Assembly: GCA_024278755.1 (NCBI GenBank)
Contig: JAJRSO010000038.1
Span: forward strand, 248,001-312,000
DNA length: 64,000 nt
Source: Calditrichota bacterium
GTDB lineage: Bacteria; Calditrichota; Calditrichia; Calditrichales; Calditrichaceae
Direction: 5' to 3'
Shown piece after piece: positions 32,351-54,000 of the stretch; position 1 is the first letter of the stretch; each line of letters starts with the position of its first letter. The position numbers and the translations under genes are program-made. Under the pieces are notes generated by a model. That model was given only the letters and a program-made list of their open reading frames with translations. It made no database searches and was not told where the DNA came from.

Positions 32351-33694
32351 ATGCCCGTATCGAATATTTTTGAAATAGGAAAACAATCGCTTCTTGCTTA
32401 TCAGTCGGCCATTCAGACCACAGCGGGAAACATATCCAATTCCAATAATGAAAACTATGCCCGGCGCAGAGTGGCGATTTCGCAAATGCTGGGCGGCTTT
32501 TCGGCTTTGGGATTCAATCCAGAAGAAAGCGTACGAATGCGTCAGCGTTTTGCCGAACAGCAATTGTGGAGTGAAAATCAATCGCTGAACGAATACAGCA
32601 CTTCTAATATGTTGTTGAGCCAAATTGAGGATATTTACGCGGAAGATACAGAATCCGGCATATCTACGCTGCTTACACAGTTTTGGAATTCCTGGAGCGA
32701 CCTGGCCAATGATCCCGAAAGCGACTATGCCCGGGCCATTGTAAAAGATAAAGGTCTCTTGCTCACTAACGCCTTTGGCCGAGTGCATCAGGATTTAAAA
32801 CAGATGCAAACTCAGATTCGTCCGGAGATTGATTCCAGAATTAGTGAGGTAAATCAGACTTTACAACAAATATCGGCAATCAACCAAAAATTGCGCTATG
32901 AAAAAGCGCCGGATTTAATGGATAAGCGCGATCAGCTCTTAAGCAACTTGTCCAGTGAAATCGATATTAAGGTAAAGGAAAAAGAAAGCGGTGAAGTGAG
33001 CATCTATTCCGATGGGTTTTTACTGGTTTCCGATGCAACCGTTAATACTCTGCGTACGGAAGTGGTGAATAATAATGACAATTATGAGATGCATATTTAC
33101 TGGGGCGATTCGGACAAAGAGCTTAATCCGGGTTCGGGAACTATTAAAGGTTTGCTGAATTCGCATAATTTGGAAATTCCGGATCAATTGGACAAACTGG
33201 ATCAACTGGCGGTACAAATTGCCGATTCGGTAAACAGTGTGCATGCAAGTGGCGAGAATTTAAGCGGGATCACCAACATTTCCTTTTTTGATTCACGGGT
33301 GACAGGCGCGGCGGATTTTAACGTAAACGACGCTATTTTAAATGATATTAGTTTAATCGCTACCCGTCAGAGCGGCGAAGGCGAAGGAAGTGGAAGTATC
33401 GCACAGGCGATTTCCGACTTGCAGTTTGATAAAGGAATGAACGGCAGTACAACAATGGAATACTATCAGGGTGTGCTGACACAACTTGGAAATAAAATTC
33501 AGGAAAGCGATTTTCTTGAACAGAGCCAGAAATTAATTGTTGAGCAGCTTCAGAATCAGAAAGAAAGTATTACCGGGGTTTCTATTGATGAAGAGATGAC
33601 CCGCCTTGTTCAGTACGAACAGGCCTTTCAGGCGGCTTCCAAAATTATCAACACCGTCGATGAAATGACCAATACCGTATTAGGATTAAAATAA
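32351..33694 (+). CDS. flgK: Hook-filament junction protein FlgK (HAP1)
   Basis: FlgK is the first junction ring between hook and filament. The 447-residue product is rather short for the family (often about 550), so part of the outer domain is absent. It has the N-terminal axial motif AIQTTAGNISNSNNENYARR, the segment FWNSWSDLANDPES typical of FlgK, and a C-terminal D0 helix (LVQYEQAFQAASKIINTVDE). AGAGGAAA is the ribosome site. Confidence 0.95.
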   Translation: MPVSNIFEIGKQSLLAYQSAIQTTAGNISNSNNENYARRRVAISQMLGGFSALGFNPEESVRMRQRFAEQQLWSENQSLNEYSTSNMLLSQIEDIYAEDTESGISTLLTQFWNSWSDLANDPESDYARAIVKDKGLLLTNAFGRVHQDLKQMQTQIRPEIDSRISEVNQTLQQISAINQKLRYEKAPDLMDKRDQLLSNLSSEIDIKVKEKESGEVSIYSDGFLLVSDATVNTLRTEVVNNNDNYEMHIYWGDSDKELNPGSGTIKGLLNSHNLEIPDQLDKLDQLAVQIADSVNSVHASGENLSGITNISFFDSRVTGAADFNVNDAILNDISLIATRQSGEGEGSGSIAQAISDLQFDKGMNGSTTMEYYQGVLTQLGNKIQESDFLEQSQKLIVEQLQNQKESITGVSIDEEMTRLVQYEQAFQAASKIINTVDEMTNTVLGLK

Positions 33695-33725: not shown

Positions 33726-34607
33726 ATGCGTGTTACCCAAAATATGATACTGCGAAATACCTTGAGCAGGGTAAATGACAACCGTGATGAAATGAACACT
33801 ATTCAGCGTCGCATCGCCTCGCAAAAAAGGGTACAGAAGGCGTCGGATGATCCGATAAGCTTTTCACGCGCTGCCCGTTTTCGGCGCAGCTTGGAACAAA
33901 ATAAACAGTTTATTAAAAATGTGGAAGATGCCAATGCCTGGATTAGCACAACCTCCATTTCCTTAGATCAATTACATGAATATGCACTTCAGGCATATGA
34001 TTTAGCGTCACGCGGGGCAGATGGAACCGCCGATGCGGAATTACGCGCCCAGCTTGCCGATTCCGTCCGCGGTCTTTTACAGGATTCCGTGAATCTTGGC
34101 AATTCACAATATCTCGGAAAAAGTATCTTTGCCGGAACCCTGACCAATGAAGAGGAACCTTTTTTACTAACCGGTGATGTTGTCACTTATCAGGGAAATG
34201 ACGAATATATTGAACGCCGTGTTACCGAAAACCAGGTGGAAAATATTAACACCACCGGTCAGGATTTGTTGGATACGGAACTGTTTGCCGGCCTGAACGC
34301 CTTAATAACGGCGCTGGATGCCAATGATGTGGATGCTATTAACGCCAGCATGGAACAGATGGGTAACGTAAAAAAAAATCTACTAACGCTTTCGACCACA
34401 ACCGCGTCCCGGGAGACGAATTTATTATTGGTTAAATACCGGCTGGAGAGCACCAATGAAGATTTGATTGCTTATATATCCGATGAAGAAGACGCGGTAT
34501 TAGAAGAGGAAATTGTTAAGTTTAAATCTCAGGAAACCGCCTATCAGGCGGCGTTACAATCGGCCAGCCAGATAATGAATATGAATATATTAAACTATCT
34601 TTCTTAA
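33726..34607 (+). CDS. flgL: Hook-filament junction protein FlgL (HAP3)
   Basis: FlgL is the second junction ring below the filament. The 293-residue product has the flagellin-like N-terminus MRVTQNMILRNTLSRVNDNR, IASQKRVQKASDDPISFSRA (the ASDDP motif is family-typical), and a C-terminal helix (SQETAYQAALQSASQIMNMN, then ILNYLS). It closes the flagellar part of the operon; the next gene begins 4 bases after its stop. Confidence 0.96.
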   Translation: MRVTQNMILRNTLSRVNDNRDEMNTIQRRIASQKRVQKASDDPISFSRAARFRRSLEQNKQFIKNVEDANAWISTTSISLDQLHEYALQAYDLASRGADGTADAELRAQLADSVRGLLQDSVNLGNSQYLGKSIFAGTLTNEEEPFLLTGDVVTYQGNDEYIERRVTENQVENINTTGQDLLDTELFAGLNALITALDANDVDAINASMEQMGNVKKNLLTLSTTTASRETNLLLVKYRLESTNEDLIAYISDEEDAVLEEEIVKFKSQETAYQAALQSASQIMNMNILNYLS

Positions 34608-34611
34608 TTAG

Positions 34612-35757
34612 ATGAAAACTAAATCCGAACAGAATGTCAAACCTCTTTATGTAACCCGTCCGGAGCTTCCTCCGCTGGAGGATTTTACTGCTTATTTATC
34701 TAAAATATGGGAACGTCGCTGGCTGACTAATAACGGGGTATTTCACCGTCAGCTGGAAGAAGAACTGGCAGGTTTTCTCGGGGTGCGTTATGTGAGCCTG
34801 TTTTCAAACGGAACCCTTGCCCTGGTAACCGCCTTGCAGGTACTGCGAATTACCGGCGAAGTGATTACAACGCCCTATACTTTTGTCGCTACAACCCATG
34901 CTCTGAACTGGAATCGCATCAAACCAGTTTTTTGTGATATTGAACCCCAAACAATGAATATGGATCCGGAAAAGATTGAAGTTTTAATTACGCCCGAAAC
35001 CACTGCCATTTTACCGGTTCATGTGTATGGGAATCCCTGCGCTACAGAAAAGATTCAGAAAATTGCCGATATTCACGGTCTTAAAGTGATTTATGACGCC
35101 GCCCATGCTTTTGGAGTAAAACGAGACGAACAATCCATTCTTAATTCGGGTGATTTATCGGTATTAAGTTTTCATGCCACAAAGATATTTACCACGATGG
35201 AAGGCGGCGCCATTGTTACAAATGATCCTAAATTAAAGAAACGAATTGATTTTTTAAAAAATTTTGGCTTTGCCGATGAAACTACCATCATGGCTCCGGG
35301 AATTAACGGCAAGATGAATGAAATGCAGGCCGCCTTGGGCTTATTGCAGTTAAAAGAAGTGGAAGAGAGCATTTCCTCGAGGAAACAATTAAGCGAGCGG
35401 TACCGGGCATTCCTGGCTGAAATTCCCGGTTTAAGTTTTTTAGAAGAACAAAGGGGCATTCAATACAACTATTCTTATTTCCCCGTTTTCATTGATGGTA
35501 AAAAATTTGGTAAAAGCCGGGATCAGTTATATGAGCAACTCAAAAAACAAAACATTTTTGCGCGGCGCTATTTTTATCCGTTAACCAGTTCGTTTTCTAT
35601 GTACAGGGGATTACCGTCAGCAAAAACAAAAAATTTGCCAATTGCCACTAAAATGAGCAAACAGGTGTTGTGTTTACCCCTTTATCCGGGTCTCTCAGAA
35701 GAAGAGCAGAACCGGGTTGTCGGACAATTAAGAACAAACCTCAGGTTGGGAAAATGA
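34612..35757 (+). CDS. DegT/DnrJ/EryC1-family sugar aminotransferase
   Basis: These PLP enzymes make amino sugars from nucleotide-linked keto sugars. The 381-residue product has the family fold: an N-terminal LSKIWERRWLTNNGVFHRQL start, the PLP-phosphate motif SNGTLAL, the Asp that pairs with the pyridine N (D162 in YDAAHAFG) and the Schiff-base Lys K191 in SFHATKIF. It begins 4 bases after flgL without a clear ribosome site, so it is likely translated by coupling. Context points to synthesis of a special sugar for flagellin or junction-protein glycosylation, like PseC or LegC type enzymes; the exact substrate is not known. Confidence 0.93.
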   Translation: MKTKSEQNVKPLYVTRPELPPLEDFTAYLSKIWERRWLTNNGVFHRQLEEELAGFLGVRYVSLFSNGTLALVTALQVLRITGEVITTPYTFVATTHALNWNRIKPVFCDIEPQTMNMDPEKIEVLITPETTAILPVHVYGNPCATEKIQKIADIHGLKVIYDAAHAFGVKRDEQSILNSGDLSVLSFHATKIFTTMEGGAIVTNDPKLKKRIDFLKNFGFADETTIMAPGINGKMNEMQAALGLLQLKEVEESISSRKQLSERYRAFLAEIPGLSFLEEQRGIQYNYSYFPVFIDGKKFGKSRDQLYEQLKKQNIFARRYFYPLTSSFSMYRGLPSAKTKNLPIATKMSKQVLCLPLYPGLSEEEQNRVVGQLRTNLRLGK

Positions 35758-36530
35758 AAATAGGTATCATGCAGCCTTATATATTTCCCTACCTGGGCTA
35801 TTGGCAGGTGATGAACAAGACGGATCGATGGATTTTTTTTGATACCGTACAATATAATAAACGCAGCTGGATGAACCGTAACAGAATTATGCATCCAAAC
35901 CCCGTTAAAGAATACCAATACATTTCAGTGCCGATTAAAAAACATCCCAGGGGGACGCTAATAAATGAAGTGGAAATCAACCAGGATATAAACTGGAGAG
36001 AAACAATAAAAGGCCAGTTAACTGTTTATAAACAGCTGCGCGCACCTTATTATGACGATGTCCACGCGCTGATTGAATCCATTTTGGATGAAGCAAAAAT
36101 GGATTCGTTTCTAGAACTTTGCATCCTTTCCAGCGAAGCAATCTGTAAAAGTCTGCATATTGCGATTAATTACAAAATTGCTTCACAAACGGATTTTGAC
36201 CGGGAACGAATTACGGCGCCAGGGGAGTGGGCTCTGGAAATTTGTAAAGCACAAAAAGCAGATATGTATATCAATCCATACAGTGGCTATGATATTTTCG
36301 ATGAAGAAAATTACCGGAAAAATAATATCGAACTTCGCTTTTTGAAACCGGCAATACGGGAATATACGCAATCAAAAAGAGAACGGTTTGTACCATCGCT
36401 CTCGATTATCGACATGCTAATGTTTACCGGATTCAGCTATACAGAAAAAAGTATCAAAAATGATTTTAGTCTCTATACCAAAGATGATTTGATAAAGGGT
36501 TTGCAGGATGAAGAGCGCGGGAAAAATTAA
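35754..36530 (+). CDS. WbqC-family protein
   Basis: WbqC-like proteins occur in O-antigen and glycan clusters; their reaction is not well established and some are thought to be acyl or formyl transfer partners of aminotransferases. The 258-residue product begins IGIMQPYIFPYLGYWQVMNK, then WIFFDTVQYNKRSWMNRNRI, the family signature. The conserved end has the QxxxxFVPxLSIIDMLMFTG segment. The ATG at 35754 overlaps the aminotransferase stop (ATGA), and the end overlaps the next gene by 23 bases. The pairing with DegT-type genes is common. Confidence 0.92.
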   Translation: MKIGIMQPYIFPYLGYWQVMNKTDRWIFFDTVQYNKRSWMNRNRIMHPNPVKEYQYISVPIKKHPRGTLINEVEINQDINWRETIKGQLTVYKQLRAPYYDDVHALIESILDEAKMDSFLELCILSSEAICKSLHIAINYKIASQTDFDRERITAPGEWALEICKAQKADMYINPYSGYDIFDEENYRKNNIELRFLKPAIREYTQSKRERFVPSLSIIDMLMFTGFSYTEKSIKNDFSLYTKDDLIKGLQDEERGKN

Positions 36531-37206
36531 ATCCTATTATCAGAAGCGCCTGCAAAATTGCGCAGATGACGATTTATATTATCAGGTTGGTAAAACGCAA
36601 TACGGTAAAAAAGTCCCTGCCGGGCAGATCGATCGGATCGTTGAAGCGATTCAATCTAATTTGCAACTATCAGCGGACGATCATGTTTTGGATATCGGTT
36701 GTGCCAATGGATTATTAAGCTATTCCATTGCCGAAAAAGCCGCTACTTTAACCGGAATTGATTTGAGTGAAGAGCTGATTCGAATTGCCGGAAAATACCG
36801 TTCCCGATCTAATATTTCCTATTTTACAGACGATATTTTTTCTTTCAATTTAGAAGGTTCAAAAATAAACAAGATTTATATGTATGAGGTTTTACAGCAT
36901 TTTTCATATGGTAGATTCAGACAATTGCTTCGCGCTTTACAAACCCATTTAAGAGCCTTCCGGTTTTTTATTGGAGGCATACCCGACGCCCATCGTCTCT
37001 TTAAATTTTACAATGACGATGAAAAGAAAAGGTTTTACTTTAACACACTGGAGCAGGAACAGCCGCACATGGGAACCTGGTGGTATGCTGATCATTTGCA
37101 AATGGTCTGTGAAGAACTGGGTTTAGCTAGTAAAATCATCGAACAGCATCCGGATCTATACACCGCACATTACCGGTTCGATTTTATTGTATGGACTGTA
37201 TCATGA
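36508..37206 (+). CDS. Class I SAM-dependent methyltransferase
   Basis: The 232-residue product has the SAM-binding motif I VLDIGCANGLLSY (about residues 53-65), motif II in TGIDLSEELIRIAG and an acidic motif at post-II in YFTDDIFSF, followed by the IYMYEVLQHF segment. It is a single-domain enzyme with no membrane segment. It probably methylates a sugar or another small group in the flagellar glycan; the acceptor cannot be told. It overlaps the sulfotransferase by 4 bases (ATGA). Confidence 0.9.
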   Translation: MKSAGKIKSYYQKRLQNCADDDLYYQVGKTQYGKKVPAGQIDRIVEAIQSNLQLSADDHVLDIGCANGLLSYSIAEKAATLTGIDLSEELIRIAGKYRSRSNISYFTDDIFSFNLEGSKINKIYMYEVLQHFSYGRFRQLLRALQTHLRAFRFFIGGIPDAHRLFKFYNDDEKKRFYFNTLEQEQPHMGTWWYADHLQMVCEELGLASKIIEQHPDLYTAHYRFDFIVWTVS

Positions 37207-38027
37207 CGGAAATAAAAAAAATTATTGGCATATTCGGGATGCCTCGTTCCGGGACAAGTTTTGTGGCGCAAATTTTTGACAGCCATCCTGAGGTGGCCTT
37301 TCGTATGGAGCCAATTTTTTCGTATGCGCTAAAAAACAGTGTTAATGAACATGCAACAAAAGCAGAATTTGAATCCTTTTTTGAAAAAGCGTTTAATGCA
37401 AAAGACGATGTGTTTATGAATCAACTAGAAAACAGAGCGAAGGGTATTTATCCGACTTTTAAAAAAGAAAAGAATGCTTCCGTTCTGGTATTTAAGACCA
37501 CCCGTTTTCATGAAATTATTCCGGCGCTACTTAAAAACTTTTCTCCGGAATTCATGAAAATAGTCTCGATTGTTAGGCATCCCTGCGGCGCGATTAATTC
37601 CTGGCTGAATCATCCCAATGAATTTCCGCCTGAGGCCGATAAAATGCAGGAATGGCGCAGCGGGGCTTGTCGTAAAACGGCTAAAGAAGAATACTGGGGG
37701 TTTAATGATTGGCTGAAGGTAACGCAATTACATCAACAGTACGAAAAGAAACATTTAAATTTTAAAGTTTTTCAATATGAAAACTTTGTCCAAAATATAC
37801 ATTACGAAACAGAAAATCTTTTTGATTTTACCGGTTTGGATATTAATAAACAGACGCGTGGTTTTATCAGTCAATGTCAATCCAGAGAAGATACGGATCC
37901 GTACTCCGTTTATAAAACAAAAGATGCTGCAGGCAAGTGGAAATTTCAGCTTAATGAAAAAATTAAGGATGCAATTATTCACGATGCTGTTAAGATGGGA
38001 TTGGGTAAATATTTAGTTTCTGTTTGA
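37203..38027 (+). CDS. Sulfotransferase family protein (PAPS-dependent)
   Basis: The 274-residue product has the PAPS phosphosulfate-binding loop at about residues 11-23 (FGMPRSGTSFVAQ, followed by IFDSHPEV), and the 3'-phosphate site in MKIVSIVRHPCGAINSWLNH. Further on, the segment FQYENFVQNIHYETENLFDF matches the family region that follows the YExL motif. These enzymes move a sulfate group from PAPS to hydroxyls of sugars or lipids. Location in a flagellum-linked glycan cluster suggests a sulfated flagellar sugar, an unusual type of modification. No PAPS-synthesis genes are in the window. The ATG at 37203 overlaps the preceding TGA. Confidence 0.9.
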   Translation: MTEIKKIIGIFGMPRSGTSFVAQIFDSHPEVAFRMEPIFSYALKNSVNEHATKAEFESFFEKAFNAKDDVFMNQLENRAKGIYPTFKKEKNASVLVFKTTRFHEIIPALLKNFSPEFMKIVSIVRHPCGAINSWLNHPNEFPPEADKMQEWRSGACRKTAKEEYWGFNDWLKVTQLHQQYEKKHLNFKVFQYENFVQNIHYETENLFDFTGLDINKQTRGFISQCQSREDTDPYSVYKTKDAAGKWKFQLNEKIKDAIIHDAVKMGLGKYLVSV

Positions 38028-38073
38028 TTTTCGGTTTTTGAATGATAAACGACAGGGATATAGGAGAAATGAG

Positions 38074-41000
38074 ATGAAAAAAACATATTTAAATATTGGT
38101 TGCGGAGATAAAAAAATCCCTGGTTTTATAAATATTGACACCTTGCCAAGCGCAGATCTGCGTCTTGATGTTACGAAGGGTCTGCCGTTTGAGAACAATT
38201 CAGTTGATGTAATTTTTAACGAACACTTTATCGAACACCTGTCGCAGGGGCAGGGGGTAAAATTTTTCAGAGACTGCAGAAGAGTTTTAAAACCCGGCGG
38301 CCGTATCAGAATCGCTACACCCGATCTCGATTTTGAAGTAGAACGGTACCAGAACAAAGAAAACTGGCAAAATATGCATGAATTGCCAAAGTTTGGAATC
38401 AACTATGTTCAAAACCGTTGTGAACTGTTCAATATCGCTATGCGAAACTGGGGCCACCAGTGGTTGTACAACGAAGAAGAATTGATCCGTCTTGCTGAAG
38501 AAGCCGGCCTGCAATTTGATAGCCGATGTGCTTTTGGTGTTAGCGCAGATCCCCTTTTGAGTAATTTGGAATACCGAACCGGTTCCCGATTGATTGTAGA
38601 ATTTATTAAACCCATCAGAACCTATTCTCAAGATGAGCCGTTTATAAGCATTTTAATACCGGCTTACAACAAAGAATATATTGCAGCAACTTTAGAAAGC
38701 GCCGTATCACAAACCTATAAAAATATAGAAATTGTAATCAGTGATGACAGCGAAACGCAGGATATTGAGAAGATAGTTAAAACGTTTTCTAAAAAAGATG
38801 CCCGAATCCGATATTATAAAAATGAAAAGAATCTTGGAGAAGCAGGAAGGGCAAATTATTTAAAAGTCTTTTCGCTGGCCAAAGGGGAGTTTATAAAATT
38901 TTTAAATGACGATGATGTTCTGGCCATTGATTGTGTCGCTAAGATGGCGGATGCACTTAAACAGTTCCCGGATGTAACCCTGGTGACATCCTACCGAAAA
39001 CGAATTAACGCCCACGGCGAATTTTTGGCAGATGAGGATTATAACCAAAAAATCGCTGAAGAGGATACCTTGATTGATGGGGCCTCCGCGATCGGAAAAC
39101 TGCTGGGCGAACGGATGAATTATATCGGCGAACCGACAACGGTGATGTTTCGAAAAGCTGATATTGAAAAAACCCGTCCCGATATTTTTAGTTTTGGGGG
39201 AAGAACGGCGCTTCGGAACGGCGATGTAACCATGTGGGTGAATCTTTTGAGTAAAGGGGATCTCATTTATTTTACAGAACCATTAAGTTTCTTCAGAATA
39301 CACAGTAAACAGCAGCAGCATAGTCCGGAATATACTGAAAAAGTGATTGCCGCCTGGCAGCAAATTTTAGCGGATGCAGAGCGAATGGGATTGAGCATAG
39401 AAAATACCGGCAGTCTGCGTGAAGAAAAAAATAGCGCGCGAAGTAAAAGTGCTTCCCAACGAGTAAATGTTAAACAAAATGATGAATACGCCGCTAAATT
39501 AAAACAGGAAATTTCTATTTATGAACAAAATACAAATGTTCATAATTTACCTGAAATCCATGATGTATATACAGGTAAATTTCTTGTTCCAAGTTTACAG
39601 CAGCTCAGCGGCCGAGGGGACTGGAAGGAATGGTGGATTAAGGAAATTGATGAATTTGTTGAAAAAGTAAAACGACCCGTAACCATTTTATCGCTGGCAT
39701 GTGGAAACGGCGATTTGGAAATTGATTTGCTTAATAAGTTATCCACGCAAGACCGTGTAACAATTATAGGAGTCGATGTAAATCCCAAGATGATCGCCCG
39801 TGCCAGAGAAATGGCAAAAAAACAAAATCTAAGCCAGGCCAAATTTGAAGTTCAGGATCTAAATTTCCCGAATCTTTCGGCTCCTATCGACATCGTTTTG
39901 GCAAACCAGTCTTTGCACCATCTGGTAAAACTGGAAAATTTATTTGATGAAATCGCTGCCAAAGCTTCTCCGGATATGATCTTTTTAATCAATGATATGA
40001 TTGGGCGCAATGGGCATATAATGTGGCCAAACAGCGAACTCGTTATGCAGAAACTATGGCAGGAATTACCTAAAAAATACAAACGTAATGCCTATACAAA
40101 AAAATACGATTCAAAGCCTTTTAATTACGACTGCAGCAATGACGGTTTCGAAGGCATCCGGGCGCAGGATATTCTTCCATTACTGGTTCGCTATTTTGAT
40201 GTAGAGATGTTTCTGCCTTTTTCTACCATTATTAACCGTTTTACCGAACGGGTTTACGGACACAATTTTGACACAAAACTGGAACAGGATAAGCAGCTTA
40301 TCTTAAGCATTTTGAAACTTGACGTTCAGTTAATGGAAGAAAAGAAACTGGCTCCTACGCAAGCCTTTATGCGCGTACAGCAAAAGGGAACCGTAAATAA
40401 AATGCGGTATCTGTACCAAACGCCCCAAGAAGCAATCGCTGCGCGGCAGTTTGCCGTTCCGTCCGATGAAAAAGCGTTTTCATTGGAAACACCTGCCCGT
40501 AGGTCTAAACGAATCAAACCACTCGTTTCAATTGTTATTCCCGTGTTTAATAATTTGGAATATACTAAGAAATGTTTAACAGCTATTGAAACAAACACAA
40601 CATATCCGAATTATGAAATTATCATTATCGATAATGCCTCGTCCGACGGTACAACCGAGTTTCTAAAAAATCAAATGAATAGTGGAATTCGGGCTGTTTT
40701 CAATACTGCAAACAAGGGGTTTGTGGACGCTTGTAATCAAGGCGCCGATATTAGCCGCGGAGTGTATATTTTGCTACTAAATAACGACACCGAGGTTCAG
40801 CCGGGCTGGCTATGCACCCTTGTTCAATTTGCGGAAGAAAATGAGGACTGTGGGGCTATCGGATCCAAATTAGTCTATCCCGATAAAACTTTGCAGGAAG
40901 CAGGCGGTATTATTTTTTCAGACGGCAACGGCTGGAATTTTGGCAGAGGACATAAACCCGACGACCTGCGTTTCTCTTTTGTACGGGAAGTGGATTACTG

Positions 41001-42006
41001 CTCCGGAGCGGCGTTGATGGTTAAAAATGAATTGTGGAAGAAAGCAGGCGGCCTGGATAGCCAATATGCGCCTGCTTACTACGAAGATACGGATATGTGT
41101 TTCACCGTGCGCAAGCTGGGTTATAAAGTTTACTACCATCCGCACAGCGTTGTAATTCATTATGAAGGAAAAACCGCCGGAACCGATTTAACAACCGGAT
41201 TTAAAAAATATCAAAAAATAAATCGGAGCAAGTTTATAAAAAAGTGGAAAAATGAATTAAAGCTTCAGCAATGCAATAATCCCATCAATCTAGTAAACGC
41301 TTCAAACCGACAGGCAACAAAAAATATTATTGTGTTTGATCCGTTCTTGCCAATGTTTGACAAAGCCTCCGGGTCGTTACGCTTGTTTCATATATTAAAA
41401 CTTTTGAAGAAAATAGGGTTCCACGTCACCTTTATTGCCCGCAATGGTTCCAATGAGAAAAAATACAAACCCATCCTGGAAAAACTAGGTATTATGACGG
41501 TTGCTACGGATATAGAAGCCATGCGTCATGCCGGTGTCGCTCTAAAAGATATTCCGGGGAATATTGATTATAAATCCTTTCTACAGGAACGTTTTTACGA
41601 TTATGCGATCATTGATTTCTGGGACATGGCAGAGTTTTATGTACCGATTATCCGTCAGTTTTCGCCGAAAACAAAAATAATTATTGACAGTGTTGATATT
41701 CATTTTATCCGCGAACTGCGCGAGGCGGAATTAAGGAAGGATAAAATATTGCGCCAAAAAGCGCTTCAAAATAAAAAGAAAGAATTGGCCGTTTATCAAA
41801 AAGCCGATCGCATTTGGGTGGTAACGGAAGAAGATCGGCAAGCGCTAAAAGGTTTGGTTAAAAAAATTCCCATCGATATTGTTCCTAATATCCATAAAAA
41901 AGTTGATTTCGAAAAGAATTCCAGAACAGTTCCGATTTACTCTTTGTGGGCAATTTCAATCATCCGCCCAATCAGGATGCCGTTCATTTTCTTGTTCGCG
42001 AAATAA
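38074..42006 (+). CDS. Giant glycan-modifying protein, N-terminal part: methyltransferase-GT2-methyltransferase-GT2-GT1 (ends by frameshift)
   Basis: Start ATG 38074 has AGGAG 7 bases upstream. The readable 1310 residues contain, in order: a SAM methyltransferase (about 1-185; LNIGCGDKKIPG, LKPGGRIRIATPDLD); a GT-A family 2 glycosyltransferase (about 189-410; ISILIPAYNKEYIAATLESA, LNDDD); a second methyltransferase (about 537-700; SLACGNGDLEIDLL, NQSLHHL); a second GT2 (about 816-1075; VSIVIPVFNNLEYTKK, LLNNDTEVQPGW); and the N-half of a GT-B group 1 transferase (from about 1085). Past about residue 1288 the reading changes to unrelated residues and stops at 42006, while the GT1 fold continues in the -1 frame (LFVGNFNHPPN). 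One missing base near 41936-41940 would restore one 2286-residue protein. Confidence 0.9.
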   Translation: MKKTYLNIGCGDKKIPGFINIDTLPSADLRLDVTKGLPFENNSVDVIFNEHFIEHLSQGQGVKFFRDCRRVLKPGGRIRIATPDLDFEVERYQNKENWQNMHELPKFGINYVQNRCELFNIAMRNWGHQWLYNEEELIRLAEEAGLQFDSRCAFGVSADPLLSNLEYRTGSRLIVEFIKPIRTYSQDEPFISILIPAYNKEYIAATLESAVSQTYKNIEIVISDDSETQDIEKIVKTFSKKDARIRYYKNEKNLGEAGRANYLKVFSLAKGEFIKFLNDDDVLAIDCVAKMADALKQFPDVTLVTSYRKRINAHGEFLADEDYNQKIAEEDTLIDGASAIGKLLGERMNYIGEPTTVMFRKADIEKTRPDIFSFGGRTALRNGDVTMWVNLLSKGDLIYFTEPLSFFRIHSKQQQHSPEYTEKVIAAWQQILADAERMGLSIENTGSLREEKNSARSKSASQRVNVKQNDEYAAKLKQEISIYEQNTNVHNLPEIHDVYTGKFLVPSLQQLSGRGDWKEWWIKEIDEFVEKVKRPVTILSLACGNGDLEIDLLNKLSTQDRVTIIGVDVNPKMIARAREMAKKQNLSQAKFEVQDLNFPNLSAPIDIVLANQSLHHLVKLENLFDEIAAKASPDMIFLINDMIGRNGHIMWPNSELVMQKLWQELPKKYKRNAYTKKYDSKPFNYDCSNDGFEGIRAQDILPLLVRYFDVEMFLPFSTIINRFTERVYGHNFDTKLEQDKQLILSILKLDVQLMEEKKLAPTQAFMRVQQKGTVNKMRYLYQTPQEAIAARQFAVPSDEKAFSLETPARRSKRIKPLVSIVIPVFNNLEYTKKCLTAIETNTTYPNYEIIIIDNASSDGTTEFLKNQMNSGIRAVFNTANKGFVDACNQGADISRGVYILLLNNDTEVQPGWLCTLVQFAEENEDCGAIGSKLVYPDKTLQEAGGIIFSDGNGWNFGRGHKPDDLRFSFVREVDYCSGAALMVKNELWKKAGGLDSQYAPAYYEDTDMCFTVRKLGYKVYYHPHSVVIHYEGKTAGTDLTTGFKKYQKINRSKFIKKWKNELKLQQCNNPINLVNASNRQATKNIIVFDPFLPMFDKASGSLRLFHILKLLKKIGFHVTFIARNGSNEKKYKPILEKLGIMTVATDIEAMRHAGVALKDIPGNIDYKSFLQERFYDYAIIDFWDMAEFYVPIIRQFSPKTKIIIDSVDIHFIRELREAELRKDKILRQKALQNKKKELAVYQKADRIWVVTEEDRQALKGLVKKIPIDIVPNIHKKVDFEKNSRTVPIYSLWAISIIRPIRMPFIFLFAK

Positions 42007-44933
42007 TGCCCGAAGTGCGTAAAAAACTACCGGATGTTAAACTAATCATTGCCGGAAATAATCCGCCGCAGGAAATTCAGGATTATGCTTCGGATACGAC
42101 CATTGTCACCGGGTATGTAGAAGATTTGGCTCCCTATTTAAAAAAAGCGCGTATCTCGGTTAGTCCGCTTCGTTACGGAGCAGGAATGAAGGGTAAAATT
42201 GGCGAAGCGCTCTCATGGAGTTTGCCCGTTGTAACCACATCCGTAGGTGCGGAAGGGATAAAACTTGTCGATGGAGAGCAGGCCTTGATTGCCGATGAAG
42301 CAGCGGCGTTTGCCGAAAAGATTATTATGCTTTATCAGGATGCGCAGCTTTGGAAAAAACTCTCTGTGAAAGGCCGCAGGCATGTGAATGCCAATTGGAG
42401 TCCGCAGGTAATTAAAAAGACACTTTCGTCGGTTTTTGGTAAACCCGAAATCGCTTCTGTTAAAAAAGCGGAAGAACTGGTCTCAATAATTATGCTCACA
42501 TTTAACGCGTTGGAATATACGAAAAAATGTATCCGCTCCATTCAGAAACAAACCAAATATCCGCACGAAATAATTATCGTGGATAACGGTTCCAAAGACG
42601 GCACCCGAAAATATTTACGTGAATTAGAGAAAAACTTTAAAAATATTCATATTAAACTAAATAAAAAAAACAAGGGGTTCTCCGGCGGAAACAATATTGG
42701 CGCCAAATTGGCTAAAGGGAAATATGTCTGTTTTCTGAATAATGATGTTTTGGTTTCGGACGGCTGGCTGGAAAGCATGGTCAATGCCCTGGAAGCGGAT
42801 GAAAAAATCGGAATGGTGGGACCGCTGACTAACAGCATCAGCGGTTTACAGATGGTTACCAATATTTCGTATAAAGACGAGGCCGGATTTTATAAGTACG
42901 CCGCTGTTGTACGCGCTCAGTATGCGGGAAAAATAACTCCCCGGCGGCGCATTGCCGGTTTTGCCTTTATCATGAGAAAAAAAATCTACACACAACTCGG
43001 CGGTTTTGATGAATCCTTCGGTATTGGAAATTACGAAGATGATGACCTTTGTTTACGGGTTAGGCAAAAAGGCTATGCCATTATGGTGGATGAAGGGACT
43101 TTTATTCATCATTTCGGAAGCCAGACCTTTAAGGCAAACGGCATTGATATCGGACAATCTTTAGATGAAAAGGGAAAAGTATTTAAAGAAAAATGGCCGG
43201 ATGTGGATTATGAAGAATTGCTGGAGATGAAAAATCCTTTGTCCAAATTGCACGTGCAAAGAATAAAAGTAGCAGCCGAAAAGATTAAGAACGGTTTTGT
43301 TGAAGAGGCCAGTGAAATATTTTTATCGGTGTTGGCGGAACATCCGCTCCATTCCGAGGCGTTGCTGGGCATGGCAACCTGTCTAATTCAGCTCAAAGAC
43401 TACAATCGGGTTGGTATTTATATTAATAAATTATTGCGAGAGGAGCCTAATAACGCTCACGCCTTAAACCTTGCCGGATTGGCTTTCGCCGGCAAAGGAG
43501 ATATCGAAGCCGCCAAATCTTCTTTCTCCCGGGCAATAGAAAAGAATCCGCAGTTTGTTGACGCACAGCGTAATTTGGGTGATTTATTTATCGAAGCGGG
43601 CGAATACGAAACGGGGATTAAAATATTTCAAACACTTTTGAAAAATCATCCTTCCGATATTCCCTCGTTATTATATATGGGTGAACTTAACCTGGAAGCG
43701 GGACGACCCGAAGATGCGCTAATATATGTTAAGCGGATTTTACAATTAGACGCCGAAAATGAACTGGCGAAGCGGTTAAAAACGATAATTGAAACCAATT
43801 TTGCTCAGTCGCATGAGTTTGCATCAAAAAAAATGACGGCTACAGCTCTGCAGGAAGAAAACACGAAAGAGCTTTTAAAAACCTATCGTGAAATATTGGA
43901 ACAGCAGCCTGAGTCGGCCGAGGCCCTGTTAGGCGCGGCCCGCTGCTGCAACCTTCTCTCGAAGCATAAACAGGCTTCCGTTTATATAAATAAACTTCTT
44001 CGGGTTGAACCGGAAAATGCGCAAGCCTATAACCAATCCGGATTGGCTTTGGCCGGAATGAAAGAGTATGCTTCCGCTAAATCGGTTTTTGAGCTTGCCA
44101 TACAAAAAGATCCCCGGTGTATTGACGCGCAACGGAATTACGGTGACACATTAATTGAATTGGGCGATTTCGAAAACGGAGTGCGCGTTTTTCAGGAGAT
44201 TTTAAAACGAAATCCGAAAGACGTTGCCTCCTTGCTGTATATGACGGATTTAAATTTTGAAGCACAACGATACGAAGACGCACGAATATATTGTAATCAG
44301 GCGCTCAAAACCGAACCGCAAAATGAACTGGCGCTTCAATATAAAGCCTTACTGGATAATCCGCCAAAGGATTCGGATGCCCAAAATACCGGGCAGACTA
44401 TTGAACAAGCTAACAGTTTTCTGGAAGAGGGCAAAACGAATGAAGCGATTACATTGTACCAAACCGTTTTAAACGCCGCTCCGGATAACTTAAACGCCCT
44501 TTTCGGAATGGCAACCGCCTGCCAGATTAAGGAAGAGTTTGCGCAAAGCCGAAAATGGCTACAGAAAGCGCTGGAATACCATCGGGATATTCCGGAAATT
44601 TACAATATGCTGGGAAATCTGGAACTAATTGAAGAAAACACGGATCAGGCAATCGCGTATTTTAGCGCTTCTTTGGAAATCAATTCCGCCCAAGCCGAAA
44701 TACGCAACCGTCTGGCAGACGCCCTGCTAATGGACAAACAGTATGAACAAGGCATTCAGCTTTTACTCAAAACCCAAAAAGAATTTCCGGAAGACAGCGG
44801 CACTTTGCTGCATCTCGGCTCGGTGTATCTCGAAGCGGGAAGAGAAGAAGAGGCCGAGTCTCTTTTTCGAAAGGTGCTGGATTTAGACCCGGAAAATAAA
44901 CCGGTGCTGGAATATTTTGAAAACAGAGTCTAA
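41946..44933 (+). CDS. Giant glycan-modifying protein, C-terminal part: GT1 C-half-GT2-TPR (frame -1 relative to N-part)
   Basis: The frame is open from upstream of 41946; GTG 41946 is only the first possible start and lacks a ribosome site. The part begins with GNFNHPPNQDAVHFLVREI, the GT1 motif expected after the break, and goes on with the donor-site segment SPLRYGAGMKGKIGEALSWS. A third GT2 domain lies at about 178-430 (VSIIMLTFNALEYTKKC, FLNNDVLVSDGW). A TPR solenoid with at least ten repeats lies at about 440-995 (A-L-x-G-x-A, A-x-x-x-x-x-L, P-E-N patterns). TPR-linked GTs often act on proteins. It is likely the remainder of the 38074 gene, made inactive or split only by one base. Confidence 0.9.
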   Translation: MGNFNHPPNQDAVHFLVREIMPEVRKKLPDVKLIIAGNNPPQEIQDYASDTTIVTGYVEDLAPYLKKARISVSPLRYGAGMKGKIGEALSWSLPVVTTSVGAEGIKLVDGEQALIADEAAAFAEKIIMLYQDAQLWKKLSVKGRRHVNANWSPQVIKKTLSSVFGKPEIASVKKAEELVSIIMLTFNALEYTKKCIRSIQKQTKYPHEIIIVDNGSKDGTRKYLRELEKNFKNIHIKLNKKNKGFSGGNNIGAKLAKGKYVCFLNNDVLVSDGWLESMVNALEADEKIGMVGPLTNSISGLQMVTNISYKDEAGFYKYAAVVRAQYAGKITPRRRIAGFAFIMRKKIYTQLGGFDESFGIGNYEDDDLCLRVRQKGYAIMVDEGTFIHHFGSQTFKANGIDIGQSLDEKGKVFKEKWPDVDYEELLEMKNPLSKLHVQRIKVAAEKIKNGFVEEASEIFLSVLAEHPLHSEALLGMATCLIQLKDYNRVGIYINKLLREEPNNAHALNLAGLAFAGKGDIEAAKSSFSRAIEKNPQFVDAQRNLGDLFIEAGEYETGIKIFQTLLKNHPSDIPSLLYMGELNLEAGRPEDALIYVKRILQLDAENELAKRLKTIIETNFAQSHEFASKKMTATALQEENTKELLKTYREILEQQPESAEALLGAARCCNLLSKHKQASVYINKLLRVEPENAQAYNQSGLALAGMKEYASAKSVFELAIQKDPRCIDAQRNYGDTLIELGDFENGVRVFQEILKRNPKDVASLLYMTDLNFEAQRYEDARIYCNQALKTEPQNELALQYKALLDNPPKDSDAQNTGQTIEQANSFLEEGKTNEAITLYQTVLNAAPDNLNALFGMATACQIKEEFAQSRKWLQKALEYHRDIPEIYNMLGNLELIEENTDQAIAYFSASLEINSAQAEIRNRLADALLMDKQYEQGIQLLLKTQKEFPEDSGTLLHLGSVYLEAGREEEAESLFRKVLDLDPENKPVLEYFENRV

Positions 44934-44957: not shown

Positions 44958-45938
44958 TTGAGTTTATCTGTCTGCATGATCGTTAAAAACGAAGAGGCGG
45001 TGATTGCCGATTGCTTAAATAGCGTGCATTCCATTGCCGATGAAATTATTCTGGTCGATACCGGTAGCGCTGATAAAACCAAAGAAATTGCACATACTTT
45101 TAATGCAAAAATATTTTCGTTTGAATGGGTGAACGATTTTTCGGCCGCCCGCAATGAGGCGCTTAAGCGGGCAACGGCAGAATGGATTTTGCATATAGAT
45201 GCCGACGAAACGCTGAACAGCGCTTCCTTAAAAGAAGTACAGCGGATTATTGACCAATCGGACGCGGACGCCTTTACCGTTGTCGTGCGCAATTATCATC
45301 CCGCGGAAGATATGGTACGCTATATGGATTCGAAACAAATACGACTTTTTCGCAACCGCGCGCAGTACCGCTATCAAAATTCCATCCACGAACAGATTGC
45401 CTTATCTATTGAAGAGAGTGGCGGTAATATACAGGATTCTTCCATTCTTCTTCATCATTACGGGTATCGAAAGCATAATACACACAAAGCGCAGCGCAAT
45501 CGAATTCTTTTAGAAAAAAGCGTACAAAACGATCCGAAAAACGCATATTTACAGTTTAAACTTGGAGAGACCTATAAAGCCCTGCAACAAAACGAAGCGG
45601 CTAAAAACTGTTTTTTAAACGCTTTAAATAGCAACGGACAAGGATTATCGTCCGAAATTCTGGAGTTCGTTTACCTGCGCCTATCTCAATTGGAACTTGC
45701 TGCGAACCGCTATCATGAAAGTGTGCAGTACGCTCGTAAAAGTCTGTTGATTAATCCGGATAACGCTCTTTCATTGTATCTTATCAGCATCGGCCTTTTA
45801 TATACGGGAAGGGTTAAGGAGGCCGAATCTTTTTTAACTCATTTACAAAGTATAAATAGCAATAAACTTGTACCGGAAACCGATATCGCGCCGCTTGTTC
45901 AAATCTGCGAATCATATAAAAGAGAAAGAAACAGTTAG
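44958..45938 (+). CDS. GT2 glycosyltransferase with C-terminal TPR (paralogue 1)
   Basis: The 326-residue protein starts at TTG 44958 with AGGAG 7 bases before it. The GT-A domain (about 1-215) has LSVCMIVKNEEAVIADCL, IILVDTGSADKTKEIA, FEWVNDFSAARNEAL and the metal-binding DADE motif of the SunS-like family. A C-terminal helical TPR-like region (about 195-320; KNAYLQFKLGETYKALQQNE) follows. Such proteins are known from S-linked or O-linked protein glycosylation; it may glycosylate flagellin. It is close in sequence to the next gene, a tandem duplication. Confidence 0.9.
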   Translation: MSLSVCMIVKNEEAVIADCLNSVHSIADEIILVDTGSADKTKEIAHTFNAKIFSFEWVNDFSAARNEALKRATAEWILHIDADETLNSASLKEVQRIIDQSDADAFTVVVRNYHPAEDMVRYMDSKQIRLFRNRAQYRYQNSIHEQIALSIEESGGNIQDSSILLHHYGYRKHNTHKAQRNRILLEKSVQNDPKNAYLQFKLGETYKALQQNEAAKNCFLNALNSNGQGLSSEILEFVYLRLSQLELAANRYHESVQYARKSLLINPDNALSLYLISIGLLYTGRVKEAESFLTHLQSINSNKLVPETDIAPLVQICESYKRERNS

Positions 45939-47291
45939 ATGCAAACGCTTTCGGTCTGTATGATTGTGAAAAATGAGCAGAAATTTATTCGGGATTGTTT
46001 AGAAAGCATCAAACCCGTTGCCGATGAAATTATTATCGTTGATACGGGTTCTACAGACAAAACTATTGAAATTGTCCGCGAATACACAGAAAAAATCTTT
46101 CCCTTTCAATGGGTAGACGATTTTTCCGCCGCTCGAAACGAGTCCATCAGACACGCCCAAAATGATTGGATTTTATGGTTAGACGCCGATGAACGGTTGC
46201 GACCGGAATCAATTCCAATCCTTAAAAAATTATTGACCAAAGAGAAAAAACCTACCGCTTATGTGCTGCCAATCTGGAATATGCTGGCCGATAAAAAGAA
46301 CTATAAACTTTCCGGAGCGCACCGCTTATTTACGAATCACAAGGGTCTCTACTTTACAGGAAGGATTCATGAGCAGATTGTACAGAGTCTGGCCGCAAAA
46401 AAGGGAAACGAACGAAACTGCGCGGTCACGCTTATCCACCTCGGTTACGGTTTGGAAAAAGACGCCCAAAATAAAAAAAATGAACGCAACCGAAAACTTT
46501 TGAAGCGAATGGTAAAAGAAGAACCGCAAAACGCCTACGCGCATTTTACGCTGGCACAAAATTACAGCCAGGCATTGGAGTGGGAAAAGGCGGCCAAACA
46601 CTATCGGGAAGCACTAAAATATCACCGTTTTGACCCGGGAATGGAAGCCTCTCTGTTAAATACCTACGGGGAAGCCCTGATGAAACTGGGCCAAACGAAA
46701 CAGGCCCAAAAAATGGCCCTGCAATCAATTTCCAAAATTCCGCAGCAGGGAGGCGGCTATTATCTGCTTTATAAACTGGCCGAAAACGAAGGCGACAGAC
46801 AGAAAACCCTTAACTGGCTGCTAAAACTTTTTGACTCCAACCAAAAACTCCGTGAATCCGGTAAAAAACTATCCACGGATATTTTACTGAATCAGGATGA
46901 TGTAACCTTCGAAATTTTTAAAACCTATCTTGCTTTGAATGATGCACAAAAGGCGCTGGACTGGCTGAGCAAACTCCCGCAGGAAAAACAGATAGATGGG
47001 GGGCTGTTGCTCAAAAAGGCCGAGTTGTATTTTAAAACAAACAATTTAAACGGCGCCCAAAATATCCTGAAAAACGATATGTTTGCTCAAAACCCTGGCG
47101 CGTTGAATTTACTGGGCATCACTTACATTAAACAGCAAGATTGGAACAAAGCTGTTTATACGTACGAAGAACTTCTAAAAATTGAACCGGACAATTCAGA
47201 CACCATAAAACGTCTGGCCGGCATTTACGCGAAAAACGGGCAGATGGAAAAAGCACAGGCCTTGGTAAAACTTTTAAATTCTAAATTTTAG
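45939..47291 (+). CDS. GT2 glycosyltransferase with longer TPR (paralogue 2)
   Basis: The 450-residue protein is a paralogue of the previous one, beginning one base after its TAG stop. It has LSVCMIVKNEQKFIRDCL, IIIVDTGSTDKTIEIV, FQWVDDFSAARNESIR and the DADE motif, then a C-terminal TPR region of about 250 residues (NAYAHFTLAQNYSQALEWEK; ALNLLGITYIKQQDWNKAVY). The catalytic part is intact. The longer TPR could select a different protein acceptor. It is the last gene of the island; the 447 bases that follow contain no gene of note. Confidence 0.9.
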   Translation: MQTLSVCMIVKNEQKFIRDCLESIKPVADEIIIVDTGSTDKTIEIVREYTEKIFPFQWVDDFSAARNESIRHAQNDWILWLDADERLRPESIPILKKLLTKEKKPTAYVLPIWNMLADKKNYKLSGAHRLFTNHKGLYFTGRIHEQIVQSLAAKKGNERNCAVTLIHLGYGLEKDAQNKKNERNRKLLKRMVKEEPQNAYAHFTLAQNYSQALEWEKAAKHYREALKYHRFDPGMEASLLNTYGEALMKLGQTKQAQKMALQSISKIPQQGGGYYLLYKLAENEGDRQKTLNWLLKLFDSNQKLRESGKKLSTDILLNQDDVTFEIFKTYLALNDAQKALDWLSKLPQEKQIDGGLLLKKAELYFKTNNLNGAQNILKNDMFAQNPGALNLLGITYIKQQDWNKAVYTYEELLKIEPDNSDTIKRLAGIYAKNGQMEKAQALVKLLNSKF

Positions 47292-51898: not shown

Positions 51899-52546
51899 AT
51901 GTTTAAACTTCCAGTCGCTATTGAATCGAATATCCCTTTTTTGGTTTTACTCGGAATTACGATACTGGCCGTGGCTTTGGCCTATTGGAACTACCGTTCC
52001 GTTAATCCACCTGTCAGTGTTTATAAACGACGTCTGCTAATGGGGTTGCGCTTTATCGTTTTTTTAATGGTACTTCTTCTTCTTTTTAAACCGTCGGTAA
52101 CTTTGGTTTTTCAACACGAAATCCAGCCCAAAACAGATGTTTATATCGATAATTCTCTGTCCATGTCCCTGAAAAACCAAAGGGAACAACGCTGGTCTCA
52201 GGTAGATACCGTTCTCAAAAAACTGGATGCGTTTAAAACTAATTCGCTCTGGCTGTTTAACACCCGCGTTTATCCTTTAACGGACAGTTCTTTTACTATT
52301 TCTCAGGATGCTACCAGTTTCGACAACCTCTTCCGGCATATCGATTCGCACGACGCAGACAACATCCTACTAATTAGCGACGGCAATGTTACAGATGGCG
52401 GCTATCCGGTTCAGCTTAAACGACATCAGGATAAAAAACTATTTACCATAGGAATTGGACGTAAGAAAAAAACAGGGATATATTTATCGAAAATGTGCTT
52501 TATGAACCACTGGTTTACAGGGGGAAAGAGCAGAAGATCAGCGTAA
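51899..52546 (+). CDS. VWA-domain membrane protein, N-terminal part (ends by frameshift)
   Basis: This part has two membrane segments (about 12-30 and 47-65) and a von Willebrand A-like domain with a MIDAS start DNSLS (D84, S86, S88) and a second acidic loop LLISDGNVTDGG. Homology ends at GIGRKKK, exactly at a run of seven A (52466-52472). After that the frame reads unrelated residues and stops at 52546. The -1 frame carries on the protein (DIFIENVLYEPLVYRGKEQK). With one more A the two parts join into a 700-residue protein. No function beyond a metal-binding adhesion-type domain on a membrane protein can be given. Confidence 0.85.
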   Translation: MFKLPVAIESNIPFLVLLGITILAVALAYWNYRSVNPPVSVYKRRLLMGLRFIVFLMVLLLLFKPSVTLVFQHEIQPKTDVYIDNSLSMSLKNQREQRWSQVDTVLKKLDAFKTNSLWLFNTRVYPLTDSSFTISQDATSFDNLFRHIDSHDADNILLISDGNVTDGGYPVQLKRHQDKKLFTIGIGRKKKTGIYLSKMCFMNHWFTGGKSRRSA

Positions 52547-54000
52547 AAATCGGCGCTAAAAACATTAAAAAAGCCATAAACGGCACGGTTAAACTCATGC
52601 GTAACGGTGTGGTAACAGCCGTTAAATCCGTTTTTATTGATACGCTGGGAACGATTCAAACAGTCGATTTTAACGATACGCCCATCGCGGTTGGTCGCAT
52701 TAAATTTAAAGTGATGCTTGAAGACATGGTAGCCGACGCCAATTCGCGCAATAACACCTTTCGTTTTGTACAACAAGTTTTAAAAAGGAAATTACAAATC
52801 GCAATTTTTTCGGGAGCCCCCGATTACGAAGGAAAATTTTTGAATCAGCTTCTCTCTGACGAAAAGGACTTTGAATGTTCTTTTTTTTATGAAAACAGAC
52901 GGAACCATTTAAAAGGGAAGAATAAATACCAATTAAAAAGTGAATTTGATGTTCTTATTTTCCAGGATTTCCCTGGGCCTTTTACATCCACAGAAGTCAT
53001 AGCCGATCTACGGGAATTATTACAAAAACGCAAAAGCAGTCTGCTCTTATTTCTCGGTGAAAAGGCCGACAGGACTAAAATAAATAGTATTCTAAAATAT
53101 ACGCCTTTCTCAAAACTGCCGAAAAGAATTCGTCCGGAGTCGTCTATTTCATTTAATCCGGAAAAATCCCCTCTTTTGGACCTATTCGAAGATCCCTCGG
53201 CCAATACACAATTTTGGCAGAAAATTCCTCCGGTCACACTTATATATTCAGCCGGAAAGCTACGCAACGGCGTCGAACCACTTTTAAAAAGTAACGGGCG
53301 GCCGATTCTTCTTTCCTATTCCAGGCCCGGGTATCGGAATATTACATTTATTGGAAGCGGCTTTTGGCGTTGGCATTTTTTAATGCAAAACAGCGGAATC
53401 TTTGGCAGCGGATATGCTTCGTTGTTAAAACACATCATTCGCTGGCTGGCTGCTAAAAAGGACATAAAACCCGTAATGGTACAGGCCGATGTGACTAAAA
53501 CGGTTCCTGGAAACACGGTTCATATTTCCGCTTATATTTATGATGTTAATTATTTGCCTGTACGTGACGGTACGCTTCGGCTTCAGGTTAAGCAGGGCAA
53601 TGAAGTCATCGATCTGGAAGCGGTTATGGATAGCAGCGGACGGTATCAGGCAGAATTCGTCCCTTTGACCGAAGGAACTCTATTGATTAAAGCGCAAGGC
53701 TTTCGTTTTGACCAATTATACGGCAGCGCGCAATTGCAAATCGATATTGCCGCCGCAAAAAAAGAGTTTATCCATACGGGATTAAACCGCCGCTATCTTC
53801 GGCAGATTGCCCGTAAAAGTCGGGGATTGTACAGCGATGCGGCCAATATAGATTCTTTATTAAGCCAAATCCCGCAAAACAGTACCTTTCAAAAAGAGAA
53901 ACGTGTGTTTGAGTTTTGGTACAATCCGTATCTTTTAGCGCTGATTCTATTTGTTATTATCAGTGAATGGATTCTGCGGCGCCGTTTTGGACTGGTGTGA
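52495..54000 (+). CDS. VWA-domain membrane protein, C-terminal part (frame -1)
   Basis: The frame is open from about 52474, but the first possible start is GTG 52495, which has no ribosome site. The 501 residues contain an Ig-like or BatA-type beta domain (about 10-90), a class I glutamine amidotransferase-like region (about 95-260; VLIFQDFPGPFTSTEVIADL, then LLLFLGEKADRTK), another beta domain with a GNTVHISAYIYDVNYLPVRD stretch, and a C-terminal membrane anchor (about 476-494). This layout is known from large VWA proteins of the FCB group. It is best seen as the rest of the 51899 gene. Confidence 0.85.
   Translation: MLYEPLVYRGKEQKISVKIGAKNIKKAINGTVKLMRNGVVTAVKSVFIDTLGTIQTVDFNDTPIAVGRIKFKVMLEDMVADANSRNNTFRFVQQVLKRKLQIAIFSGAPDYEGKFLNQLLSDEKDFECSFFYENRRNHLKGKNKYQLKSEFDVLIFQDFPGPFTSTEVIADLRELLQKRKSSLLLFLGEKADRTKINSILKYTPFSKLPKRIRPESSISFNPEKSPLLDLFEDPSANTQFWQKIPPVTLIYSAGKLRNGVEPLLKSNGRPILLSYSRPGYRNITFIGSGFWRWHFLMQNSGIFGSGYASLLKHIIRWLAAKKDIKPVMVQADVTKTVPGNTVHISAYIYDVNYLPVRDGTLRLQVKQGNEVIDLEAVMDSSGRYQAEFVPLTEGTLLIKAQGFRFDQLYGSAQLQIDIAAAKKEFIHTGLNRRYLRQIARKSRGLYSDAANIDSLLSQIPQNSTFQKEKRVFEFWYNPYLLALILFVIISEWILRRRFGLV

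Follow-up and report, generated by a model that had tools for sequence, protein, structure and literature searches.

What does a gene region with six transferase domains do beside the flagellar genes of an uncultured member of the Calditrichaceae, and could the order of its domains correspond to the order in which a sugar chain is built? The region, hereafter the giant, lies in a window of 64,000 nucleotides (positions 248,001 to 312,000 of contig JAJRSO010000038.1, assembly GCA_024278755.1), to which all coordinates refer; the features described are on its + strand. The giant occupies 38038-44933 as two overlapping open reading frames (ORFs) in different frames, 38038-42006 (1,322 aa, with an in-frame ATG at 38074) and 41946-44933 (995 aa). 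An earlier reading of the letters and ORFs alone (the sequence-only reading) had joined them into one polypeptide of about 2,286 residues, a length that fits the two ORFs, and proposed that this protein builds and caps a short sugar chain on a protein held by its tetratricopeptide (TPR) solenoid. We find the main idea reasonable, with corrections: the first sugar is assigned to a GmaR-like enzyme, and the giant is better described as two methyltransferase-GT2 cassettes followed by a core.

Domain architecture and the conserved core

The order along the region is MT-GT2-MT-GT2-GT4-GT2-TPR, the GT4 being a GT1-type domain of the GT-B fold. A Pfam search, with scores far beyond chance, agrees with the proposed content of two methyltransferases, three GT2 domains, one GT1-type domain and a TPR solenoid. 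The first ORF carries two methyltransferase and two GT2 domains and ends with the N-terminal half of GT4: MT1 (38086-38514; local HMM and Pfam), with an intact SAM motif, NIGCGDKKIPGFINID, and the window motif NIGCGDKK...NID; GT2a (38629-39400; Pfam GT2), with LNDDD and NGD conserved with five relatives; MT2 (39538-40401; Pfam Methyltransf_31, 2.8e-25), with ACGNG; GT2b (40516-41250; Pfam), the first domain of the conserved core, with NND, YYEDTD and GKT; and the GT4 N-terminal half (41374-41916), delimited by alignment with 12 relatives. The second ORF holds the GT4 C-terminal half (41946-42434; Pfam Glyco_trans_1_4, 1.8e-27) with MKGKIGEAL, GT2c (42468-43247; Pfam GT2, 2.9e-32) with NND and with YEDDD plus HHFGSQTF, and a long TPR array (43284-44909; Pfam TPR_19, 1.1e-52). 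Signature motifs were found in every domain of the giant, and all those inspected were intact, so the loss of catalytic residues from most domains, earlier named as a point that would count against the idea, is not seen. With six transferase domains with intact motifs in its split gene, where two in one chain would suffice, and with continuous frames in relatives, the giant has the domain content of a multidomain glycosyltransferase. A hydrophobic segment of membrane-span strength was looked for in the giant and not found. No carrier-protein domain is among the Pfam matches shown, and the likeness to an NRPS/PKS assembly line is therefore one of analogy only. All matches to NCBIfam equivalog families were far below the curated cut-offs. 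Elsewhere in the same genome, a GT2 match contains an in-frame TAA (G000:C39:75537-76031).

In relatives, the region is a single ORF of 1,224-3,038 aa, and homologues are thus not consistently split, the other finding that the sequence-only reading had said would undermine it. Examples are the intact giant of G030 (L021/L077; 3,038 aa, MT1-GT2a-...-MT2-GT2b-GT4-GT2c-TPR), which incorporates a methyltransferase and a sulfotransferase domain that the window encodes in separate genes, and those of G027 (1,802 aa) and G013 (1,224 aa). They have in common a C-terminal core, GT2b-GT4-GT2c-TPR, which we found in Calditrichota, Neomarinimicrobiota and one Armatimonadota MAG. Its spacing is tight, with 42-47 residues between GT2b and GT4 and 7-16 between GT4 and GT2c in 14 of 15 giants (40 in the remaining one). 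A deltaproteobacterial pair shares GT4-GT2c-TPR, and other giants of the window's class retain GT2c-TPR with different modules ahead. GT2c is the module most widely kept in the family in this class, with a mean column identity of 71% over 10 genomes; its nearest named matches are Calditrichota MAGs, the top one (92% identical) a Calditrichaceae bin.

Ahead of the core, methyl-, sulfo- and glycosyltransferase modules are gained and lost as units, even inside one genus. In genus g6, G013 has the core only, G012 has one sulfotransferase (ST1) before it, and G006 and G014 have ST1-ST2; these are orthologous by position (48-58% identity for ST1 and 63% for ST2, against 22-25% between ST1 and ST2). 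In each of the six giants found to have it, MT2 stands immediately before GT2b, and that of the window is 53-61% identical to the MT2 of G030 and of four Neomarinimicrobiota giants. The alternation of methyl- and glycosyltransferases noted earlier is therefore real as a domain order, but is better read as two MT-GT2 cassettes before a conserved core. Individual modules can also die: the SAM motif of MT1 is degraded in G030 and the domain is shortened in G024, which rules out an MT1 active throughout the family. The window's GT2b is 67-68% identical to Neomarinimicrobiota sequences and 47% to that of the family member G009, whereas its FlgL shows the opposite (35-37% and 57%). Over 45 genome pairs, which are not independent, GT2c identity tracks that of FlgL (rho 0.38) and GT2b identity does not (rho -0.11). 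Although G009 may carry another GT2 at that place, these identities show that the GT2b module has been replaced or exchanged, but not by which route.

The probable source of the first sugar and a proposed order of synthesis

The giant belongs to a glycosylation island adjoining the 3' end of a flagellar operon, which is formed by flgK (32351-33694) and flgL (33726-34607; Flagellin_N match, E 4.9e-16, at G000:C27:281735-282139). Then come genes for a DegT-type sugar aminotransferase (34612-35757; Pfam DegT_DnrJ_EryC1, 9.2e-104), a WbqC-like protein (35748-36530; Pfam WbqC, 8.5e-59), a stand-alone methyltransferase, MT3 (36508-37206; Pfam Methyltransf_25, 9.5e-13), and a stand-alone sulfotransferase (37191-38027; Pfam Sulfotransfer_3, 1e-14), followed by the giant and two GT2-TPR genes. 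Many relatives have the sulfotransferase domain, encoded separately here, within the giant itself. Predicted sulfation, absent from the sequence-only reading, is part of the system.

The two genes downstream of the giant encode candidate initiating enzymes. The first (44958-45938) is a GmaR/SunS-like GT2 with TPRs (NCBIfam SunS, 3.4e-23, below the cut-off), and the product of the second (45939-47291) matches the glycosyltransferase domain of GmaR (22ao_A, 1.1e-33, its best PDB match) as well as SunS. Both GmaR and SunS are enzymes that act on proteins. It is the second gene, and not the giant, that has the GmaR-like GT2 with TPRs expected of a GmaR-type transferase. The first flagellar sugar is thus probably added by the product of one or both of these adjacent genes (44958-47291) rather than by the giant. 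The proposal that the giant builds and caps the chain is favored by its domains, fusion and flagellar setting, but must be trimmed at this first step. The position of the GmaR-like domain also bears on which end of the giant acts first. In 14 giants of other lineages it is fused, lying C-terminal of GT2c in all 14 and N-terminal in none; where a gene of its own encodes it, that gene is downstream of the giant in 37 cases and upstream in four. Taken with a core that stays constant and an N-terminus that varies, this position suggests that the giant works beside the protein with its C-terminal end and acts on outer sugars with its N-terminal one.

We consider it moderately likely that the giant is a multi-transferase of the cytoplasm which lengthens an O-glycan on flagellin and afterwards adds methyl or sulfate groups, proceeding from its C- to its N-terminus with the TPR docking flagellin. 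The GmaR/SunS-like GT2-TPR enzyme or enzymes would attach the first sugar to Ser/Thr of flagellin, and the C-terminal TPR solenoid of the giant would dock the (glyco)flagellin. The core sugars would be added by GT2c, GT4 and GT2b, and the N-terminal MT-GT2 cassettes would extend and cap the chain, aided by the neighboring sulfotransferase and methyltransferase. If docking occurs at the C-terminal TPR, with the core transferases and then the N-terminal cassettes following, the order of synthesis would be the domain order read from C to N. The TPR of the Caulobacter enzyme FlmG binds flagellin (PMC7591256), which makes the solenoid a plausible dock; that it holds the protein, as the sequence-only reading had it, goes a step further. 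The sequences establish the domains with their motifs, the single frame in relatives, the flagellar link, the conserved core with its modular outer part and the constant place of the GmaR-like part; we infer the flagellin target, the sugar identities and the docking as well as the reaction order, the last from domain position and not from chemistry. More tentatively, the giant may be a glycan megasynthase whose N-to-C domain order is the reverse of the order of sugars and caps, with new glycans arising as GT2, GT4, GT9, methyl- or sulfotransferase modules are swapped or added onto the conserved core, also between phyla.

Alternatively, the giant may be a plain gene fusion serving co-expression, in which the usual separate enzymes of such an island are joined, intermediates are released and the polypeptide imposes no order. 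Fusion is not essential, since MT3 and the sulfotransferase are separate in the window while their equivalents are fused in G030. Structure prediction gives no fixed domain arrangement either. A model of the homologous 1,200-aa core of L051, standing for that of the giant, has a mean pLDDT of 86 and consists of GT-A, GT-B and GT-A domains and a TPR superhelix in succession, but with a pTM of only 0.57 the placement of these domains relative to each other is unreliable; the N-terminal MT1-GT2a-MT2-GT2b part, modeled from 8 rows, has a mean pLDDT of 52 and was set aside. A mere fusion would, however, sit poorly with the near-constant GT2b-GT4-GT2c linkers across phyla, the one-sided placement of the GmaR-like domain and an MT2 that always directly precedes GT2b in this set, and we regard it as rather unlikely.

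It is also conceivable, but unlikely, that the giant itself starts the glycan, with GT2c and the adjoining TPR adding the first sugar and the downstream GmaR-like enzymes modifying another site. GT2c-TPR is the usual end of GT2c-type giants, and the Foldseek matches of the L051 core include, besides chondroitin polymerase and GT4 enzymes such as BshA, polypeptide GalNAc-transferases and TPR superhelices including that of OGT. Yet the protein-acting GmaR and SunS match the downstream genes, GmaR is absent from the profile matches of the giant's GT2c, and G032, which has flagellin, has a GmaR-like gene alone beside flgKL on the stretch read, with no giant seen there. An initiating enzyme encoded next to the giant is the reading we carry forward.

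Flagellar linkage and integrity of the gene

Giants and flagella go together well beyond the window. Among 40 genomes of the window's class, 27 with a flagellin-family protein and 13 without, GT2c occurs in 21 of the 27 and in none of the 13 (Fisher p 2.3e-6), counts that are not independent as the genomes are related. In four further flagellated genomes, a GT9-like domain plus TPR replaces GT2c-TPR (L027, L032, L033 and L035, from G021, G037, G023 and G033, respectively), and counting these GT9-ended giants raises the tally to 25 of 27 against 0 of 13 (p 8.7e-9), with the same dependence among genomes. In G031, a giant-like ORF is cut off by the contig end. FlgK/FlgL homologues adjoin giants in relatives (phmmer), and at many loci, including ones in Neomarinimicrobiota, Brocadia and Syntrophales, giants lie beside flgK/flgL or fliC. 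Linkage to flagellar genes and co-occurrence with flagellin, two marks of a flagellin glycosylation system, are thus both present, and the flagellar context proposed earlier for the giant, in the island directly after flgK-flgL, is borne out.

Could the target instead be another surface polymer or protein, with the flgKL neighborhood reflecting co-regulation? The window organism's flagellin gene is on another contig (C77), the giant comes after flgL rather than fliC, and several related loci carry GT2c-type domains without a flagellar gene on the fetched stretch, a weak observation given short contigs and divergent seeds. The strict co-occurrence of GT2c with flagellin and the flagellin-like genes near Neomarinimicrobiota and deltaproteobacterial giants make such a target improbable, and flagellin is retained as the predicted substrate.

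Two other groups of loci extend the range of giants. At the edge of a contig, a Syntrophaceae MAG has an open frame of 3,420 aa (L086:1-10260), near flagellin and flgKL homologues, carrying GT2, GT4, GT2c, TPR and a GmaR-like domain. Anammox Planctomycetota (Brocadia and Kuenenia; L061, L070, L072 and L078) have one giant or two in tandem, with GT2c about 53-60% identical to that of the window; L072 is near flagellar genes. A link to the Kuenenia S-layer was looked for, and nothing useful was found.

The two frames of the giant meet within GT4, at about 41,904-41,920, in a short linker that is not conserved in the alignment with 12 relatives. This one-base break, the sole interruption in 6.9 kb, falls between the conserved '...VPNIH' and '...DLLFVGNF', where all 12 relatives continue in frame. 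Two homopolymers, A7 at 41860 and A6 at 41896, lie upstream of the switch, where the first frame is still correct, and phase variation at a homopolymer is thereby ruled out; so is a true split gene, because relatives are fused. A second break, at about 52.5 kb, divides ORFs 51899-52546 and 52495-54000, the halves of one protein; most relatives encode it in an unbroken frame of about 700 aa (703 aa in a same-genus relative), which makes a sequence error plausible for the giant too. The simplest reading of the giant's break is such an error or a very recent mutation, leaving a single polypeptide once the frame is corrected. Even with the break inside GT4, the giant is very unlikely to be a pseudogene in decay or a pair of working halves from a true frameshift: there is only one break in 6.9 kb, the motifs downstream are intact, relatives are intact, and the second break, which affects an unrelated protein of the window, points to sequence error.

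Kinship with known systems and what the family offers

The best sequence and fold matches in the PDB are K4 chondroitin polymerase and Pasteurella heparosan synthase. These enzymes make repeating polymers. Like the core of the giant they have two GT-A domains per chain, but they have no methyltransferase or TPR. In biological setting, the giant is kin of a known process, the O-glycosylation of flagellin in the cytoplasm by transferases that act in succession and need no carrier (PMC3958885), and of its multidomain enzymes, but is unusually large and modular. FlmG (PMC7591256) and GmaR of Listeria (PMC9638930), the latter the nearest solved relative of the gene downstream of the giant, also combine TPRs with a glycosyltransferase, yet have one transferase domain against six. 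That of FlmG is GT-B, and the giant falls outside the FlmG family, with its N-terminal TPR and C-terminal GT-B, because its own TPR is C-terminal, behind a GT2. In Clostridioides difficile type B, GT1 initiates and a GT2 carrying a methyltransferase domain follows, adding methylated flagellin sugars beside the flagellar genes; these enzymes (GT1, GT2-MT, GT3) are separate proteins, and neither a TPR solenoid nor a sulfotransferase is reported in the portion of that source drawn on here (PMC5207246). The Pseudomonas syringae island (vioA, vioM, vioT, fgt1, fgt2), which makes a capped trisaccharide, likewise has an aminotransferase, a methyltransferase and a large glycosyltransferase in a flagellar cluster, but as separate genes, the largest listed viosamine-cluster product being VioT at 1,173 aa (PMC3927599).

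A parallel for several steps on one polypeptide comes from chloroviruses. A064R of PBCV-1 (Rha-T, Rha-T, MT; GT-GT-MT in one chain) acts stepwise (PMC9614988), and A111/114R has three putative GT domains (PMC7826918); both serve consecutive residues of a glycoprotein glycan. They differ from the giant in having three domains (638 and 860 aa), in acting on a viral capsid N-glycan, and in that no TPR or sulfotransferase domain is described for them (PMC9614988, PMC7826918). A review of giant-virus glycans counts A064R among the few described enzymes with three transferase domains (PMC9614988), and we found no earlier description of giants such as ours in the open-licence literature. As judged from its predicted domains, the giant is set apart from known systems by six transferase domains (more in relatives), sulfotransferase modules and modular variation.

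The family, with six or more transferase domains, spans at least Calditrichota, Neomarinimicrobiota, anammox Planctomycetota and deltaproteobacterial lineages. DNA does not usually reveal the sequence of a glycan, since each transferase is a separate protein and it is not known in which order they act. Natural giants differ by single modules before one conserved core, so that glycan structure can be compared directly with domain order, and ordered action of the giant's domains is now a testable hypothesis. The order of sugars may be encoded by the domain order of the giant, with parts that are interchangeable among relatives, and the family could supply programmable glycosylation modules.
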